In this document: positions 2,831-9,432 of the stretch, piece by piece
Layout: each line of letters opens with the position of its first letter
Position numbering within the stretch: position 1 is the stretch's first letter
Assembly: GCF_000190375.1 (NCBI RefSeq)
Contig: NZ_AEWG01000074.1
Coordinates: forward strand, 62,001 to 126,000
DNA: 64,000 bases
Source: Rubrivivax benzoatilyticus JA2 = ATCC BAA-35
Lineage (GTDB): Bacteria; Pseudomonadota; Gammaproteobacteria; Burkholderiales; Burkholderiaceae_C
Reading direction: 5' to 3'
The notes under the pieces: generated by a model
The model's input: only the letters and a program-made list of their open reading frames with translations
Told to the model about the DNA's origin: nothing
Databases searched by the model: none
Program-made: the position numbers and the translations under genes

Positions 2831-2932
2831 AGGCGGCCGCCGCATCCCTAGCTGGCCTGCGGGCAGGCCGGGGTTCGCGGCGTAGGCTGCCGGAGCCGGC
2901 GCCTCCCCGCGTGCCGGCCCCGAGGAGGGCCC

Positions 2933-3691
2933 ATGTCACGAGATCCCGTCCAGTACGTGCGCGCACTCGCGCTGCCCGAGATCGAACGCCGCGTCACGCG
3001 CAGCGGCGCCAGCGTGCCGGAGTTCGGCAGCGGCCAGGAGGTGGTGGCCGTGGGCGCCCAGCTCGCCGAGTTCCGGCCGGTCGTCAAGCCGGCGCAGCGC
3101 TCGGCGGTGGCCGACTGCCTGCTGTTGGCGCAGCTGGCCGCCAACAAGGCTTCCAACGGCAACCCCGACGTGATGGCCTGGTACACGAAGTACGTCGAGG
3201 TGCTGCAGAACGTCGGCTGGACGACACGGTCGATGGAGTTCCACGACACCGCCGTCGGCGACGACAACGCCGGCGTGCACCAGGCGATCCTGCCGGTGCT
3301 GACCGCCGCGCTCGGCGGCGCCGCGGTTGCCGCGACCTCGCTCGTCGTCTCGGTGCTCAAGGGCCTGAAGGAGATGGACGCCGGCAGCCCGTGGATCACG
3401 ATCTTCGACCGCAGCAGCATGCACGTCGGCGGCGCCAAGTTCCAGCTCGGCTCGGTCGACGCCGACGAGGCGGCCGGGACCGTCAACGTGCGGCTGGCGG
3501 CCCTGGCGATCGAGGCGCGCCGCCAGATCACCCAGGTGCTGTTCTTCAAGCTCGCGTCGGAGCACGCGAGGCTGCGCGCGGCGCAGGCGCACTTCGACAT
3601 CGGGTTCGAGCGCCTGCTCGCGGTGCAGCCGGCGGTCGCGGCGCGGGTGCAGCCCTTCCTGCTGGACAACATCGGCAAGGTCGAACTCTGA
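2933..3691 (+). CDS. Hypothetical protein, 252 aa, unrecognised family
   Basis: I do not recognise this protein. The ATG at 2933 is preceded by a good Shine-Dalgarno (GAGGAG, about 2920). There is no signal peptide. A short hydrophobic stretch rich in Ala, Gly and Val (residues about 122-142, ILPVLTAALGGAAVAATSLV) could insert in or associate with a membrane. Otherwise the composition is that of a soluble mixed alpha/beta protein. It stands alone: about 100 bp separates it from the MocR gene, and the SOS box follows it by 100 bp. A pore-forming or toxin-like role could be imagined from the hydrophobic segment, but nothing else supports one. Confidence 0.7.
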   Translation: MSRDPVQYVRALALPEIERRVTRSGASVPEFGSGQEVVAVGAQLAEFRPVVKPAQRSAVADCLLLAQLAANKASNGNPDVMAWYTKYVEVLQNVGWTTRSMEFHDTAVGDDNAGVHQAILPVLTAALGGAAVAATSLVVSVLKGLKEMDAGSPWITIFDRSSMHVGGAKFQLGSVDADEAAGTVNVRLAALAIEARRQITQVLFFKLASEHARLRAAQAHFDIGFERLLAVQPAVAARVQPFLLDNIGKVEL

Positions 3692-3791
3692 GCCCGGCCG
3701 GCCCGACGCGACACCGCTTCGCGGGTGTCGCGGCGGGCAAGGGCGCCCGGGGTCCGACGCGGCGCCGCCACGCCGGGCTTGCGCAGCGATA

Positions 3792-3807
3792 CTGTATGCC
3801 CATACAG
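3792..3807 (+). promoter_or_regulatory. LexA-type SOS box
   Basis: CTGTATGCCCATACAG has the CTG-N10-CAG form of the proteobacterial LexA site, and its outer seven bases are perfectly symmetric (CTGTATG/CATACAG). It overlaps a plausible -10 element (CATACA, 3801-3806) that lies 16 bp from TTGCGC (3779-3784). LexA binding here would block a promoter firing toward the 28-codon ORF at 3835. Confidence 0.7.
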
Positions 3808-3834
3808 TTACGTATCTTCACCGGAGCCGCCGCC

Positions 3835-3921
3835 ATGAACACCGCCGCGAAGTACCGCCAGACCTACCGTCCCGCGCCGCCGGCTCCGGCCTGGTTGCGG
3901 CGCTTCTGGCTTCTGTTCTGA
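3835..3921 (+). CDS. Small SOS-controlled peptide candidate, 28 aa
   Basis: This is a 28-codon ORF (MNTAAKYRQTYRPAPP, then APAWLRRFWLLF). The ATG follows GGAG (3823-3826) at a spacing of 8 nt. It begins 27 bp after a perfect LexA-type box with an overlapping promoter. The peptide has a basic, Pro-rich N-terminal half and a short aromatic/hydrophobic end (WLRRFWLLF) that could interact with the inner membrane. SOS-induced membrane peptides of about this size, such as TisB and SidA, are known in other bacteria, but no sequence similarity is claimed. The diguanylate cyclase frame begins 14 bp downstream at the earliest, and no terminator is visible between them. Confidence 0.55.
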   Translation: MNTAAKYRQTYRPAPPAPAWLRRFWLLF

Positions 3922-4055
3922 GCCGCTCGCCGTGCGTGGCAGACGCTGCGCGCACGGCGGCTCCCGTCGCCGGGGCGCGGGCTTGCATGACATCTGTCGC
4001 CCCGGCTGCGTCATCGCAGCTTCATCTATCGGTCGTACAGCCGATAACAAGGCGA

Positions 4056-5183
4056 ATGGCGCGCCGTCAAGTCTCCTGGAGTGCGCTCGTGCTCGGCACG
4101 AGCCACGGCCGCCGCACGCGCGTCTCCCAGTCGCTGCTGGCGATGCCGCCGCTGCTGCTGATCCACGCGCTGCTCGTGCTCGCGTGGCGCCAGGGTGTGC
4201 TGCCGGGCGCGACGGTCGCGTGGTACGTCGCCGTCACGCTCGTCGGCTGCGTGGCCTTCTACGCCGCGGTGCGCAGCGGCCTGGGGGAGCGGGCCCGCGT
4301 CGAGCCGTCGCTGAGCGCGCCGCAGATGGTGTTCGCGATGCTCTGCACCGCCAGCGCTTACGCCTTGTGCGGGCCCTACCGGTCAGCGCTGCTGTGCCTG
4401 ATGCCGCTGATCCTGTGTTTCGGCATCTTCGCGCTGGAGTCGCGTGCGTCGCGTGCGCTGGCCAACTTCGGCATCGTGCTGATGGGCGGCGTGATGGCCG
4501 CCCTGGCGGCCGAGTCGCCGCAGTCGCATCCGGCACTGGTGGAGGCCGCGAGCTGGGCCTTCCTCGCCACGTCGATGACGATGATGCAGGTTCTGTCCGA
4601 CCGTCTGAGCCGCTTGCGCTCGCGGCTGACGCGCCAGAAGAACGAGCTGAGCCAGGCGCTGGAGCGCATCCGGCTGCTGGCCACGCGCGACACCTTGACC
4701 GGCCTACTGAACCGGCGCGCCGCGATGGACGAGCTTCGGCGAGCGGCAGGGCAGGCGGCCCGACACGAACGCCCGCTGGTCGTTGCGCTGGTCGACCTGG
4801 ACCGCTTCAAACAGATCAACGACGGCCATGGCCACCAGACCGGCGACCGCGTGCTCCAGGCCTTCGCCGACGTCGCCCAGCGAGAACTGCGCGCCGAGGA
4901 CTGCGTCTCGCGCTGGGGAGGCGAGGAGTTCCTCTTCATCCTGCCCGACACCTCCGAGGACGAGGCCTGTGCCTGCCTGGAGCGCGTGCTGGCGGTGTGC
5001 GCCGAGATCATCGTCGACGGCCTGCCGACGAACTGGCGGATCGGCTTCTCCGCCGGCGTCGCGCGCTGCCTGGGGCCTGCCGACCTGGAGCCCGCCATCG
5101 AACGTGCCGACCGGGCGATGTACCGCGCCAAGCTGGCCGGCCGCGGACGCATCCATCGCGCGCAGCCTCCCGAGACGCGCTGA
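4056..5183 (+). CDS. Membrane diguanylate cyclase with GGEEF domain
   Basis: Makes c-di-GMP from GTP. From the ATG at 4056 the protein has 375 residues. Five to six hydrophobic segments (residues about 28-185) form a membrane sensory region, followed by a short coiled-coil linker (LSRLRSRLTRQKNELSQALE). The GGDEF domain starts at RDTLTGLLNRR and carries the active-site GGEEF. An RxxD inhibitory site (RAED) lies five residues before it, so product inhibition is expected. The frame is open back to a GTG at 3936, which would add 40 residues without a clear domain. That longer form would start only 14 bp after the SOS-box peptide gene. Confidence 0.88.
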   Translation: MARRQVSWSALVLGTSHGRRTRVSQSLLAMPPLLLIHALLVLAWRQGVLPGATVAWYVAVTLVGCVAFYAAVRSGLGERARVEPSLSAPQMVFAMLCTASAYALCGPYRSALLCLMPLILCFGIFALESRASRALANFGIVLMGGVMAALAAESPQSHPALVEAASWAFLATSMTMMQVLSDRLSRLRSRLTRQKNELSQALERIRLLATRDTLTGLLNRRAAMDELRRAAGQAARHERPLVVALVDLDRFKQINDGHGHQTGDRVLQAFADVAQRELRAEDCVSRWGGEEFLFILPDTSEDEACACLERVLAVCAEIIVDGLPTNWRIGFSAGVARCLGPADLEPAIERADRAMYRAKLAGRGRIHRAQPPETR

Positions 5184-5263: not shown

Positions 5264-5291
5264 ATTTGACATAATATACATTGTCGCTGTT
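5264..5291 (+). other. Xer/dif-like recombination site, left boundary of inserted module
   Basis: The sequence reads ATTTGACATAA - TATACA - TTGTCGCTGTT. The first 11-bp arm differs from the E. coli dif XerD arm (complement orientation ATTTAACATAA) at one base. The six-base centre TATACA is identical to dif in that orientation. The XerC-side arm is divergent. The last 18 bp recur at 6796-6813 with a single mismatch. I read it as a hybrid attachment site. Confidence 0.55.
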
Positions 5292-5317
5292 CTCAGGATG
5301 AGAAAGCCTGACGCGAC

Positions 5318-6925
5318 ATGACGTTGCAACTGTTCAGCATCGAGCATGCCCCGCGTGCGCTCCCACTTTGGGAAACCGTGCTGGACGACCTCGGCCGGCC
5401 GCCGCCCGCGCGCGTCGGGCGCGCGCTGGGCGTCGGCACGTCCACGGTCTACCGCTGGAACGCCAGCGGCAACGCGCCACGCATGGCGGTGCTGGCGCTG
5501 TTCTGGCTGACCCGCTGGGGCCGCTCCGCCATCGACGCCCAGGCGACGAACGACGCCATCACCGCCGTTCAACTGGCCCGGGCTCTCGCCGAGGAACGCC
5601 AGCAGCTACGCGCCCAGGTGGCCGACCTCGAGGACCTCAATAGGGCACTTCGGCTGGAGCTATCGACTCGGCCGGCGCTCCGTGACAGTGGCGCCACTGA
5701 TCCCCGCTCCCGCATAGGCACTTCGCCCGAGGACCACCGGGAGGCACCCGACGCAGCAACGCGAGAGCCTCTGGCGTGGCCTCCGGTCGACGTGGCGCTG
5801 GCTTGGCCCGCTCTGCCGGCGCTGGCTTCACAAGCTCCGGCCGAGGCGCCGAGTCAGCCCCCGCGACCTGGCGCCGACTGTTCAGGTAGTCGCGAAGCGC
5901 CACCGCCAGGAGCGCACTCACCGAAATCCCGAGCGTGTCAGCGTACGCCTGCGCCTCGTTTCGCAGCGCGTCAGGCAGTCGAAGTGTCATCGCCATGCGG
6001 TGGCCCCAAGGTAGCAGAGTGCCACCATTCTGACGCCGTTTCCCGGTTGTTGGTACTAGGACAAGCCCACCGACCCCCGGCCAACCGATCCGCCGACGCG
6101 CCGGCTTCGCCGTGCGCGGCCGCGCAGCCTGTCTCGCGTCGTCCGCTTCGGCCCGGTCCCGGGCCGGGCGACGCTCCGCGCGCCTCGGCCGGTCCCTTGG
6201 TTCTCGCAGCCGCCAGCGATCCAGTGCGCGCGGGCGCCGTGGGCGGCGCGGCCACGTCGGCTCACGCGGCCAGCAGCGGCGCCAGCTCCACCGACCTCGG
6301 GCTTGAGCTGGCCCGACGGCGCTTCGCGCCTGTCTCGGCTTCGGGGCCTAAACGGCCCCTTACCTGGGGGCTCGATAGCCCCCAGACCCCGGCGCCTAGG
6401 GCGCCAGGTTCCGCAACCCCCGCCAACGCGCAAGGAGGCTCCATGCCCAACACCTGCCCCACCCCGTACCACTGGCTCAGCACCGATGAAGTCGTGCAAC
6501 TGGCCCTGACCGCCTACCACGCGGCGTGCCGCAACTACGACCAGTGGGCCGCCAAGCACCCCGAGGACGCCGCAGACGACGCAGCGAGCGGCGACATGGG
6601 CAACCGCGAGCTGGCGGCCAGTGTCGGCGAAATTTTCACCTACCAGCTCGAACACCTGGGCCACACCAAAGGCGTGCCGGGGTTCGACGGCGGCTGCACG
6701 GAATGGATGCGGCGCAACCCGGAGTATTGGGGCCTGGCCAGCGAGTATGTGGACAACTCTCCGAGAAACTCGGCCGAGAAACTCGCTCAGCCTGATATAC
6801 ATTGTCGTTGTTTTGGCCCCATCGCTGCTGTCGGATTTCGTTACATCTTCTCCCTGAGAACATCGTCACCCTCGCTAAGTGCCTGTGCCGACACGCCGTT
6901 TCTTCGAGGGCTCGGCTTTTGCTAG
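5318..6925 (+). CDS. HTH-like module protein; only the first ~120 codons look genuine, frame stays open to 6925
   Basis: The ATG at 5318 lies just inside the left Xer-like site. Residues 1-120 look like a real protein. A predicted helix-turn-helix (RVGRALGVGTSTVYRWNASG) is followed by a helical region and a coiled coil (ARALAEERQQLRAQVADLED). Beyond about residue 125 the composition becomes Pro/Ala/Arg-rich and lies antisense to the convincing RHH/SEC-C gene at 5637-5996. The original stop may have been lost, or the true product is unclear. The frame is the same as the gene that starts at 6443. Function unknown; DNA binding is inferred from the HTH. Confidence 0.5.
   Translation: MTLQLFSIEHAPRALPLWETVLDDLGRPPPARVGRALGVGTSTVYRWNASGNAPRMAVLALFWLTRWGRSAIDAQATNDAITAVQLARALAEERQQLRAQVADLEDLNRALRLELSTRPALRDSGATDPRSRIGTSPEDHREAPDAATREPLAWPPVDVALAWPALPALASQAPAEAPSQPPRPGADCSGSREAPPPGAHSPKSRACQRTPAPRFAARQAVEVSSPCGGPKVAECHHSDAVSRLLVLGQAHRPPANRSADAPASPCAAAQPVSRRPLRPGPGPGDAPRASAGPLVLAAASDPVRAGAVGGAATSAHAASSGASSTDLGLELARRRFAPVSASGPKRPLTWGLDSPQTPAPRAPGSATPANAQGGSMPNTCPTPYHWLSTDEVVQLALTAYHAACRNYDQWAAKHPEDAADDAASGDMGNRELAASVGEIFTYQLEHLGHTKGVPGFDGGCTEWMRRNPEYWGLASEYVDNSPRNSAEKLAQPDIHCRCFGPIAAVGFRYIFSLRTSSPSLSACADTPFLRGLGFC
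5637..5996 (-). CDS. Ribbon-helix-helix protein with C-terminal SEC-C zinc motif
   Basis: The protein has 119 residues. Residues about 1-42 (AMTLRLPDALRNEAQAYADT, then LGISVSALLAVALRDYL) fit an Arc/CopG-type ribbon-helix-helix, the fold of many antitoxins and small repressors. After a Pro/Ala-rich linker, residues about 92-108 carry a SEC-C metal-binding motif (KCLCGSGDQWRHCHG: Cys-x-Cys-x-Ser-Gly, then Cys-His). A second ATG two codons in (5990) is possible. It lies on the opposite strand to the other module genes. A toxin partner is not evident, so an orphan antitoxin or a module repressor is the best guess. Confidence 0.7.
   Translation of the reverse strand: MAMTLRLPDALRNEAQAYADTLGISVSALLAVALRDYLNSRRQVAGADSAPRPELVKPAPAERAKPAPRRPEATPEALALLRRVPPGGPRAKCLCGSGDQWRHCHGAPAESIAPAEVPY
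6343..6405. repeat. Array of three perfect hairpins upstream of the 6443 gene
   Basis: There are three consecutive inverted repeats within 63 bp. GGGGCC/GGCCCC lies at 6343-6359 with a 5-nt loop. TGGGGGCT/AGCCCCCA lies at 6365-6384 with a 4-nt loop. GGCGCC/GGCGCC lies at 6391-6405 with a 3-nt loop. They sit 26 bp before a strong Shine-Dalgarno. No T-run follows, so simple termination is unlikely. In a mobile module, such foldable DNA could be a single-strand origin, a packaging signal or a folded recombination substrate. Confidence 0.6.
6443..6925 (+). CDS. Unrecognised module protein, 3' end altered by the right junction
   Basis: The ATG follows a strong AAGGAGG Shine-Dalgarno (about 6431-6437). 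The first ~118 residues (MPNTCPTPYHWLSTDEVVQL, later GEIFTYQLEHLGHTKGVPGF) look like a compact soluble helical protein. I recognise no family. The frame crosses the right Xer-like site at 6796-6813 and continues into flanking DNA to a stop at 6925, giving 160 codons in all. In a circularised module it would instead read SQDEKA and stop at 5309-5311, six bases before the 5318 start. The integrated C-terminus is therefore probably not the native one. Confidence 0.6.
   Translation: MPNTCPTPYHWLSTDEVVQLALTAYHAACRNYDQWAAKHPEDAADDAASGDMGNRELAASVGEIFTYQLEHLGHTKGVPGFDGGCTEWMRRNPEYWGLASEYVDNSPRNSAEKLAQPDIHCRCFGPIAAVGFRYIFSLRTSSPSLSACADTPFLRGLGFC
6786..6813 (+). other. Xer/dif-like recombination site, right boundary of inserted module
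   Basis: The site carries TATACA (6797-6802) and TTGTCGTTGTT (6803-6813), matching the left site except for one C-to-T change. The preceding 11 bases (GCTCAGCCTGA) are coding sequence of the 6443 gene and poorly resemble a XerD arm. Element-borne attachment sites in Xer-using phages are often degenerate on one side, which fits. Confidence 0.5.
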
Positions 6926-6957: not shown

Positions 6958-7599
6958 ATGATTCGTGTGCCTGGGTCGCCCCGTGCGGCCGTCGTGTCGC
7001 TGGCTTTCGGCGCCTCGTGCTGCCTCGCGGCACCGGCCACGGGTGTTCCGGACACCCCGCCTGCGGCGCCGGGTCCGTCGGCTTCGACGGCCACGGCCGG
7101 CGGCATCGACGTCGTGCCCGGCGCGTCGCAGACCATCCGCCTGCTGCTGGAACTGCAGAACGGCCAGCCGCAAGCCGCGACCGGCAGCGACGGCACCAAC
7201 CCGGCGCGCGCAAGACCGCAGGACAGCGCTCGCAGCGGCACGGCCGCCGTGATGCAGGAGCCGCAGGAGCACGACGTCGCTGGCGGCCACACCGAGGCCG
7301 CGGCCGAGCCGTCGACCCAGTGGACCGGAGGCCCGGCCGGCGCCGGTGGCGAACCGTCAGCTGCGCCCGCGCCCAGCCCGGTGCGCAGCGCCGAGCCGTC
7401 TGCCGTGCGACGCGCCGTCGCCTATCTGCGCGAGCACCGCCTGCAGGTCTTCGTCGGCGGGCTGATCGTCCTGGCGGTGGCCGCCATCGGCACGGTCGTC
7501 TCGGCGCGCCAGCGTTCGGCGCGCGCGCGACGGCGTGTCACTGCAGATCCGGTTCGCCCGACTCGTCATCGTCGTCCGCAGTCACCTCCGAGCCGATGA
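6958..7599 (+). CDS. Exported Ala/Pro-rich membrane-anchored hypothetical protein
   Basis: From the ATG at 6958 the protein has 213 residues. It has a signal-peptide-like start (AAVVSLAFGASCCLAAPATG) and a long low-complexity Ala/Pro/Gly/Thr-rich middle. One transmembrane helix lies near residue 170 (VFVGGLIVLAVAAIGTVVSA), followed by a basic tail. The arrangement suggests a periplasmic, probably disordered, domain tethered to the inner membrane. The 3' end overlaps the opposite-strand gene ending at 7538 by about 60 bp, so the stop may be imprecise. No family is recognised. Confidence 0.5.
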   Translation: MIRVPGSPRAAVVSLAFGASCCLAAPATGVPDTPPAAPGPSASTATAGGIDVVPGASQTIRLLLELQNGQPQAATGSDGTNPARARPQDSARSGTAAVMQEPQEHDVAGGHTEAAAEPSTQWTGGPAGAGGEPSAAPAPSPVRSAEPSAVRRAVAYLREHRLQVFVGGLIVLAVAAIGTVVSARQRSARARRRVTADPVRPTRHRRPQSPPSR

Positions 7600-7744
7600 C
7601 GGCGCGGAGCACCGGACGGTCCAGCGGGCGGCAGATCCGGCGGTTCAGCTGACCCAGTCGTTCGGAACGCTCGATCGCGGCGAGCACGACCTCGGGATTC
7701 ATCATCAGCGTGAACGGATTGCTGCGAGACGTGATGCGGGCCAT
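7538..7744 (-). CDS. Small conserved-looking hypothetical protein, 68 aa
   Basis: This 68-residue protein begins ARITSRSNPFTLMMNPEVVL and ends in an acidic tail (TADDDDESGEPDLQ). The core pattern, with NPFxLMM-P followed by a helix and then NRRICRPLDRP, resembles small uncharacterised Burkholderiales proteins I have seen. No function is known to me. It is convergent with, and overlaps, the 6958-7599 gene. Confidence 0.6.
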   Translation of the reverse strand: MARITSRSNPFTLMMNPEVVLAAIERSERLGQLNRRICRPLDRPVLRAVIGSEVTADDDDESGEPDLQ

Positions 7745-7861: not shown

Positions 7862-8518
7862 TCAGCGCCGCGCCGCGCCGGCCTTGGCGGCGGCGTCGAG
7901 CTGGTCGGCCAGCGCGTCGTGGCCGGTCTGGCGGGCGAAGTCGGCGGCACTGAGGCCGCGGGCGTTGCGCAGTGCCGGGTCGGCGCCCAGGCCGAGCAGC
8001 GCCAGGGCGTTGCGCTGGTCGCCGTAACCGGCGGCCATCATCAGCGGCGTGCTGCCGTTGGGTGATCGGGCGTCGATGCGGGCGCCCAGCGCGACCAGCC
8101 GGGTGACGATGCGCATGTCGGGCCCGCTGGCCGCGTAATGCAGCGGCGTCCAGCCCTCGCGGTCGATCGCGGCCCCCCGCGCGACGAGGCGCTCGACCCA
8201 GTCCAGCCGGCCGTGGATCGCCGCCATCATCAGCGCCGTCTCGCCGCGGGCACTGGCGCGGTCGATGTCGATGCGCGGGTCCTGCAGCAGACGCTGCGCG
8301 ACACGATCGGCGCGCTCCTTGATCGCCAGCGCCAGAGCGAGCTCACCCTGCTCGCTGACCGAGTTCGGGTCGAAGCCGCGCTCGAGCAGCCGGCTCACGG
8401 CGCTGTCGTTGTCGATCTGGACCGCGCGGAAGAAATCGACGTAGGAATCGGCTGCGGCGGGAAAAACGCTCAGTGCGACAGCTGCCTGTAGGATGAACTT
8501 CAACCAACGCTTGAACAT
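7862..8518 (-). CDS. Secreted ankyrin-repeat protein
   Basis: The protein has 218 residues from the ATG at 8518 (MFKRWLKFILQAAVALSVFP), whose start is a signal peptide ending near AAADS. A start at 8551 would place 11 polar residues before it. Four to five ankyrin repeats follow (GETALMMAAIHGRLDWVERL, then GWTPLHYAASG and GSTPLMMAAGYGDQRNALAL). It is a periplasmic protein-binding scaffold by family analogy. It lies 73 bp downstream of tatD and is probably the last gene of the mltG-tmk-holB-pilZ-tatD operon, as is common in Burkholderiales. Confidence 0.88.
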   Translation of the reverse strand: MFKRWLKFILQAAVALSVFPAAADSYVDFFRAVQIDNDSAVSRLLERGFDPNSVSEQGELALALAIKERADRVAQRLLQDPRIDIDRASARGETALMMAAIHGRLDWVERLVARGAAIDREGWTPLHYAASGPDMRIVTRLVALGARIDARSPNGSTPLMMAAGYGDQRNALALLGLGADPALRNARGLSAADFARQTGHDALADQLDAAAKAGAARR

Positions 8519-8591
8519 CTGGACAGATCCCGATCTTCCGAGAAAACTCATTTCAGGACAGCAACTTGTGGCCTGAAGCTGAAGTGTCTTC

Positions 8592-9386
8592 TCAAGCCTG
8601 CGCAGAGGCCGTCGAGACCCTGAACAGCCGCTCGAAGTTGCGTGTCGTCGCGGCGCCCACCTCGGCCGGGTCCAGCCCCTTGAGCTCGGCGAGCCTGGCC
8701 GCGACGTGGGCGACGTAGGCCGGCTCGTTGGTCCTGCCGCGGTGCGGCACCGGGGCCAGGTAGGGACTGTCGGTCTCGATCAGGCAGCGATCGAGCGGCA
8801 CCTCCAGCGCCACCGCGCGCAACTCCTCGGCGTTGCGGAAGGTCAGGATGCCGGAGAACGAGATGTGGAACCCCAGGTCCAGCGCCGCACGCGCGACCTC
8901 GCGCGTCTCGGTGAAGCAGTGGAAGACGCCGCCGACCGCCTCCGCGCCCTCCTCTTTCAGGATCGCCAGCGTGTCCTCGGCCGACGACCGCGTGTGCACG
9001 ACCAGCGGCAGGCCGGTCTCGCGCGCGGCGCGGATGTGCACGCGGAAACGCTCGCGCTGCCACGCCATGTCGGCCAGGCTGCGGCCGTTGAGCCGGTAGT
9101 AGTCCAGCCCGGTCTCGCCGATGGCGACGACACGGTCGCGGCGGGCCAGCGCCACCAGCGTCGACAGGTCGGGCTCGGCCTGGCCTTCGGTGTCGGGATG
9201 CACGCCGACGCTGCACCACAGCTCGCGGTGGGCCAGCGCCAGCGCATGCACGGCCTCGAACTCCTCGAGCGTGGTGCAGATCGTCAGCGCGGCGTGCACG
9301 CCGGCGGCGGCCATGTCGGCCAGCACGGCGTCGACGCGGCCGTGCAATTCAGGAAACGTCAGGTGGCAGTGCGAGTCGACGAACAT
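8592..9386 (-). CDS. tatD: TatD-family metal-dependent hydrolase
   Basis: Metal-dependent DNase/hydrolase of the TatD family, 264 residues from the ATG at 9386. That start is chosen because the metal motif HCHL begins four residues later; the frame is open to a GTG at 9425. Other family motifs are GETGLDYYR, VVHTRSS, GVFHCFTE and IETDSPYLAP. It is the gene downstream of pilZ in the conserved tmk-holB-pilZ-tatD order. Confidence 0.94.
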   Translation of the reverse strand: MFVDSHCHLTFPELHGRVDAVLADMAAAGVHAALTICTTLEEFEAVHALALAHRELWCSVGVHPDTEGQAEPDLSTLVALARRDRVVAIGETGLDYYRLNGRSLADMAWQRERFRVHIRAARETGLPLVVHTRSSAEDTLAILKEEGAEAVGGVFHCFTETREVARAALDLGFHISFSGILTFRNAEELRAVALEVPLDRCLIETDSPYLAPVPHRGRTNEPAYVAHVAARLAELKGLDPAEVGAATTRNFERLFRVSTASAQA

Positions 9387-9432
9387 GGGCAATGCAGGAC
9401 CGTGCTCGCGCCGGCCGGGTGTCACGACGGGG

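Follow-up and report, generated by a model that had tools for sequence, protein, structure and literature searches.

The 1521-bp unit found at the dif site in the window (the whole stretch of Rubrivivax benzoatilyticus JA2 DNA that was analysed, 64,000 nucleotides long) is probably an integrated satellite of filamentous phages (inoviruses), one that uses the host recombinases XerC and XerD, depends on the Rep protein of a helper phage acting in trans, and probably travels in helper virions. At the level of sequence, dif is occupied, a full dif and a XerC-arm half-site have been left at the two ends, the relatives of the unit are mostly found at dif, and its noncoding DNA carries a motif associated with inovirus rep genes. 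Excision, replication in trans, packaging and the role of the helix-turn-helix (HTH) protein are what we infer.

Junctions, dif and the empty site

The unit is bounded by a direct repeat (5274–5291 and 6795–6812) with 17 of 18 positions identical and a spacing of 1521 bp, in agreement with the first-pass annotation, which had reported two direct copies containing the sequence TATACA around a segment of about 1.5 kb. None of 2000 order-1 random sequences of 1.7 kb contained an 18-mer that differed from the left core at no more than one position, and none of 300 such sequences contained any pair of 18-mers at one mismatch or fewer. Among 62 pieces of 1.7 kb taken from the window itself, however, 8 contain some pair at this tolerance. 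On its own the repeat therefore carries little weight, and the argument depends on its dif content. A dif pattern consisting of the XerD arm and centre (up to one mismatch) has a single match in the 4.13-Mb, 164-contig assembly, at 5266 in the left copy. When a longer dif pattern (up to two mismatches) was searched for in 37 genomes of the genus, exactly one match was obtained in 22 and none in 15; the XerD arm and centre are common to the sites found, and the XerC arms are variable. The left copy, already credited with a near-perfect XerD arm, is the chromosomal dif, because it is the sole match in its genome, because there is one dif per genome across the genus, and because the D arm and centre are shared. 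This left junction (5264–5291, forward strand) is composed of the XerD arm ATTTGACATAA, the centre TATACA and the XerC arm TTGTCGCTGTT. The dif of genome G024 has the same XerC arm, and comparison with that genome suggests that the arm at the left junction was brought in by the element.

The right junction (6785–6812, forward strand) has a degenerate XerD arm, the centre TATACA and a XerC arm (TTGTCGTTGTT) that runs on into the chromosome, with a flank matching G024. Its matrix score is 11.0, versus 45.9 for the left site; with its centre and XerC arm kept and its XerD arm degenerate, it is a half-site, and these scores correspond to the composition of an attP-type site (good XerC arm and centre, degenerate XerD arm). 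Integration at dif through such a dif-mimic site characterizes the integrative mobile elements exploiting Xer (IMEX), to which the unit can be assigned on this point. Dimer resolution should continue, because one full dif remains. The GC skew of the window gave no informative signal.

Two Xer-type sites enclosing a few small regulatory genes are also what would be expected of a chromosomal relative of the plasmid dif (pdif) modules, with XerCD moving a cassette and no phage involved. A pdif module lies on a plasmid between two complete Xer sites, whereas the target here is the chromosome's own dif and the sites are direct, the right one being a half-site on the chromosome, which places the unit outside that class; the motif described below moreover ties the element to inovirus replication, and a relationship with pdif modules is scarcely credible. 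The first-pass annotation had suggested either a satellite or a chromosomal counterpart of these modules. The second suggestion is disfavoured on these grounds, and the first fits best because the unit carries a motif of the inovirus replication type without a rep gene.

The 1521-bp unit is an insertion: in G024 (taken as Rubrivivax gelatinosus DSM 1709), a single dif leads into the counterpart of the window's right flank. In that genome, dif is followed by CATTGTCGCTGTTATTTG, a gap and GTGTCGGATTCCGTTACA, resembling the window to the right of 6799, and homology resumes from 7417 at 83%. On the left of dif, local similarity between the two genomes is lost and the next homologous blocks (2878–3705 and 3789–3931) sit about 3 kb off in G024, so the empty site is clean on its right side only. 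G024 has a weaker HTH match on a different contig; of the 22 genus genomes with a dif match, the 21 besides G024 gave no match to the satellite-type HTH. The first-pass annotation had reckoned with the possibility that close relatives share the whole segment with no empty allele; the empty site in G024 favours a mobile unit. Wide gaps beside dif in two other genomes (G014 and G007) gave no match to the genes of the element.

The chromosomal flanks consist of a GGDEF gene left of dif (3936–5183, forward strand; E 2e-38) and of ankyrin-like and TatD-like genes, named by eye from the sequence (7862–9425, reverse strand). Genes of these last two kinds also accompany dif in relatives. In loci L075–L080 and L082 of the family described below, one or both are located no more than a few kb from dif or the element (in L078, on the opposite side of dif), and none were seen in the sequence examined around L081 and L083. 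A small conserved gene with an LNRRICRPLDR motif (7538–7744, reverse strand) is a constant neighbour of dif, and similar-looking open reading frames (ORFs) accompany the element in both L077 and L079, located on its ankyrin/TatD side.

Genes of the element and its relatives

The conserved part of the HTH gene spans 5318–5659 (forward strand), in a frame that is open to 6925 through the third gene, gp3, and the C-terminus of the protein is uncertain. Its best family matches are weak and below curated cut-offs (carph-isopro, E 6e-4; HTH_23, E 0.005), as are those of the second gene (5637–5996, reverse strand), which combines an RHH domain with a SEC-C type zinc motif (SEC-C, E 6e-4; RHH_5, E 0.003). 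The frame of gp3 (6443–6802, forward strand) crosses the right site and continues to 6925; family scans gave no function for it, and a search of 399 genomes of the order returned nothing beyond the window's own copy. Relatives of gp3 are present in L075, L076 and L080. The HTH gene and gp3 are treated as two genes because gp3 has its own AGGAGG upstream of an ATG and stands separate in these relatives. A GC-rich hairpin region (6069–6430, no strand assigned) precedes gp3; the stretch 6040–6445 folds better than its own shuffles (z −2.68, 0 of 100 as good), and Rfam gave no match between 5000 and 7500. This region is possibly a second-strand origin or a packaging signal.

The cargo is, therefore, as the first-pass annotation had described it (an HTH-like gene, an RHH/SEC-C gene, a hairpin array and a further gene), and its statements that the unit has no recombinase and no structural or replication genes of filamentous phages have also stood. 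Family scans, which would miss an unknown type, recognized no recombinase or integrase among the three ORFs, and there was no match to coat or assembly proteins among them and no rep or zot similarity. With neither a zot-type assembly ATPase nor coat proteins recognized in its three ORFs, the unit is not itself classified as an inovirus. In a model of the circular form, joining the ends of the element in the window, L075 and L076 sets the gp3 stop codon 3–6 nt before the HTH start (in L075, the HTH start codon is the analyst's choice); in the integrated state, the gp3 frame of the window runs into host DNA. This spacing suggests that a circular form is, or was, used.

A single HTH scan of genome contigs yielded 17 loci, nine of which (L075–L083) are satellite-type. 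In eight of these nine, dif lies about 58 bp before the HTH gene; L080 has no left dif in the sequence examined, only a right site. The second site (centre and C arm, poor D arm) lies at a distance from the first of 1692 bp in L075, 1589 bp in L076, 1393 bp in L077, 1186 bp in L078, 1397 bp in L079, 1298 bp in L081 and 1422 bp in L082; neither a right site nor an origin-type motif was found in L083. With the window and an element on a 4.04-Mb contig (L185, genome G536; sites 1467 bp apart), the family comprises 11 loci with the HTH gene, 10 of them with a left dif and 10 with a right half-site. The elements are 1.2–1.7 kb in size and occur, mostly at dif, in other Burkholderiales, several of the carriers being draft or metagenome assemblies. 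A locus with dif and a broken HTH gene (L113, G475) was left out of the 11, and assemblies appearing under two designations were counted once (L075 = G452, L076 = G468, L078 = G455, L079 = G677, L080 = G450, L081 = G703, L082 = G578, L083 = G454). The idea that the segment is a Xer/dif-type mobile unit without a recombinase of its own has, thus, gained ten further loci, in addition to the empty site and the distribution of the HTH gene in the genus.

The HTH gene is present in all 11 elements, the RHH/SEC-C gene in eight (the window, L075, L076, L077, L079, L081, L082 and L185, with a frame that appears interrupted in L075) and gp3 in four (the window, L075, L076 and L080). At E 1e-6, the HTH profile matched 11 of 81 genus genomes, six of them with satellite-type matches at E of about 1e-46 or better; across the family genomes, it matched 21 of 399 at 1e-20, five of them below 1e-45. 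In a 40-row HTH tree, in which bootstrap values had not settled, the 12 element rows and L084 form one clade (95/95); the other loci of the scan are outside this clade or absent from the tree (L086–L091) or were not included in it (L085). L084 (also L186; Pelomonas aquatica contig33) is a second satellite-type HTH copy with a different N-terminus and no dif nearby. Signs of tandem arrangement are seen in three elements: the DNA past the second site repeats the start of the element in L081 (Pelomonas aquatica KCTC 42961), a different, truncated HTH gene follows the second site in L082, and a partly similar stretch lies past it in L078.

Origin-type motifs and inovirus replication genes

A 23-nt motif of the inovirus type, ori1 (GTTGTTGGTACTAGGACAAGCCC; 6046–6068, forward strand), is a candidate helper-type rolling-circle origin carried without a rep gene, a feature beyond the reach of the first-pass annotation. 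The noncoding stretch bearing it is common to the window, L075, L076, L078 and L080, with a diverged copy in L082. At up to two mismatches, ori1 occurs in 5 of 81 genus genomes, by position always inside these elements, and gave no control matches. A relaxed ori1 pattern matched 19 viral contigs (IMG/VR), 16 of which encode a relative of the Rep protein of contig L051 (E 6e-63 or better, L051 included); the other three (L122, L124 and L127) have no Rep match and were kept in the counts. In those 16 contigs, ori1 is antisense near the 5′ end of rep and is usually followed by a GC hairpin, and 13 of them have a zot match. The L051 Rep matches replication-initiation families in PHROGs (phrog_2969, E 2e-30), and a Zot is encoded on the same contig (phrog_197, E 2e-54). 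The ori1 of the window differs from the commonest viral form at three positions. The conservation of ori1 in inoviruses may be coding in nature, because it lies inside rep there.

A second motif, ori2 (CTARATTTATNNCTAGGACAC), is present in L079, L081 and L185, with a one-base variant in L077, and 10 of the 11 elements carry either ori1 or ori2. A narrow ori2 pattern had no viral match; a wider one matched 17 viral contigs, 14 of them with a zot match (two of these weak). In 12 of the 17, a Rep of a second type, in which an HxH motif can be read by eye, is encoded 0.1–0.5 kb downstream on the same strand; four others lack this Rep (L190, L192, L194 and L205), one has neither a Rep nor a Zot match (L197), and all five were kept in the counts. 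Neither motif was found in the viral contigs of the other set at the tolerance used. These viral counts refer to contigs rather than independent phages: L123 and L051 (from which the Rep query was taken) are one contig, the second Rep query comes from L201, and the sequences around the motif resemble one another in L115, L120 and L129.

No similarity to Rep or Zot was detected in the 11 elements. At the motif level, they carry what would be the cis-acting replication signal of a helper, and the motifs resemble phage replication signals that have persisted in the absence of the replication gene. The Rep associated with ori1 was found in none of the 81 genus genomes, in a search run without a positive control, and Zot in two (G461 and G023), neither of which is a carrier. 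No resident helper was found in the carriers, and no packaging signal was identified. The failure to find a helper in carriers or a packaging signal, the three differences in the window's ori1, the possibly coding conservation of this motif in inoviruses, the lack of both right site and motif in L083, the broken state of L113 and the draft or metagenome nature of several carrier assemblies are points against a satellite.

The elements could instead be decayed inovirus prophages, separate phages that integrated at dif and lost most of their genes, leaving the left end and the origin. L083 and L113 do look decayed, the HTH gene and the motifs are shared with inoviruses, and the layout recurs in L103, an intact inovirus contig with dif and then an HTH gene on one side and, 5.75 kb away, a half-site. 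However, the HTH proteins of the elements form one clade, the sizes are similar, with frames and motifs kept, tandem copies exist, the motif stands apart from any rep remnant, and neither the RHH/SEC-C gene nor gp3 was seen in the 36 motif-bearing viral contigs; such an origin is considered unlikely. It is very unlikely that these are small autonomous rolling-circle plasmids integrating at dif with an unrecognized replication protein. Relatives of the HTH gene do lie beside rep in 2.8-kb Comamonas thiooxydans and 6.3-kb Polaromonas plasmids, but the plasmids checked lacked both motifs at the tolerance used, their HTH proteins fall outside the satellite clade, and the elements have no Rep similarity.

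For a satellite of filamentous phages, the following cycle can be proposed. Host XerC and XerD would recombine dif with the attP of the circular element (a XerC arm and centre with a poor XerD arm), in the manner of TLCphi; on infection by a matching inovirus, the HUH Rep of this helper would nick the motif and copy the element as single strands, and the helper coat would carry it to new cells. The HTH protein encoded beside att may regulate the element or assist Xer recombination, and the RHH/SEC-C protein and gp3 may be satellite-specific regulators or interference factors.

Known satellites and wider relatives of the element genes

RS1 and TLCphi are the nearest relatives of these elements, and both bring replication genes; RS1 carries its own, whereas none was recognized here. 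TLCphi of Vibrio cholerae (a TLC-class IMEX) is a satellite at dif without structural genes, with an autonomous replication module and an attP in which the XerC arm and centre resemble dif and the XerD arm is degenerate (PMC4246890). The elements share its location, its type of attP and its lack of structural genes, and differ in their size (1.2–1.7 kb) and in that no Rep, and hence no autonomous replication module, was found in them. TLCphi also encodes the XerD activator XafT (PMC9765430), and the position of the HTH gene beside att is only suggestive of an equivalent function. RS1 is a helper-dependent satellite of CTXphi that is integrated at dif by Xer (PMC4246890, Table 2; PMC11389934), features that the window's element shares, its own helper dependence being presumed; unlike the element, RS1 belongs to the single-strand attP(+) class (PMC4246890). 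XacF1, an inovirus integrated at dif by XerC/D, has its attP inside a regulator ORF (PMC5666396), just as the right site of the window lies inside the gp3 frame; dif-integrated inoviruses, such as XacF1 and L103, differ in carrying rep, zot and coat genes and in being 5–8 kb long. The PICMI, minimalist satellites of marine phages, are likewise reduced in gene content and helper-dependent (PMC10803314), but their helpers are virulent phages, whereas the putative helper here is filamentous and integration would be by host Xer. In open-licence papers, a scope that does not prove absence in print, no satellite of filamentous phages was recognized beyond RS1 and TLCphi.

More tentatively, and with somewhat less than even confidence, the elements may represent one lineage of viral satellites that integrate, occur in several Burkholderiales genera and, at 1.2–1.7 kb, rank with the smallest described. 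They would contain little beyond DNA sites, namely a Xer half-site and an origin of the helper type (at least two versions of which correspond to two Rep types of inoviruses), together with satellite-specific regulators. The HTH protein encoded at att would then be a Xer recombination factor of a new kind, found also in inoviruses, a tailless phage and small plasmids. If true, a family of very small satellites without rep would join a group whose known examples, RS1 and TLCphi, come from V. cholerae, and it would provide a clean system for studying the minimal DNA of a mobile element, here a single origin and Xer half-site with a few regulators. The matching of two origin types to two inovirus Rep types leads to direct predictions of helper range, and a rep-type origin motif without rep beside dif offers a general route to finding more such elements.

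The RHH/SEC-C gene and gp3 had no match in the viral contigs bearing ori1 (19) or ori2 (17), and the RHH profile had no confirmed match in viral contigs. The RHH protein had no match in plasmids and matched 35 Pseudomonas phage records over about half of the query, in the RHH part only. The RHH profile matched 347 of 399 genomes of the order; among the matches listed, only that of the window (E 2e-42) spans the whole profile, the best other match has an E of 5e-11, and most of the others cover the C-terminal part and lie within frames of about 900 amino acids, presumably SecA tails. The HTH protein had no match in phage records, even at E up to 1, and was matched in 7 of the 16 Rep-bearing ori1 viral contigs and in 1 of the 17 ori2 contigs. 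Judged by similarity, it is not satellite-specific: relatives occur in inovirus contigs and small plasmids, and one lies next to the capsid gene of a tailless phage (L185).

This capsid gene (phrog_8536, major head protein, E 2e-25) belongs to an 11.7-kb region of G536 (L185:288–11965) on the XerD-arm side of the same dif as the L185 element. An HTH gene of the same family reads away from dif in this region, and the far half-site keeps the XerD arm; the region is a mirror-image dif element, probably a tailless prophage. Relatives of the HTH gene in L051, L088, L104, L109 and L112 likewise flank a dif-like site on its XerD-arm side and point away from that site, and the site in L051 has a XerD arm but no XerC arm; the HTH gene may be placed on the side where the good arm is retained. 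The inovirus contig L103 (IMG/VR 3300050493_000069) has HTH genes on both sides of its full dif. An HTH relative is present in the 2.8-kb C. thiooxydans plasmids (L062 and L063), which are annotated with rep and hypothetical genes. In Saezia sanguinis (L188), two Rep and HTH units, one of them with Zot and each with a diverged ori1, lie about 6.56 kb apart and are apparently a tandem inovirus prophage.
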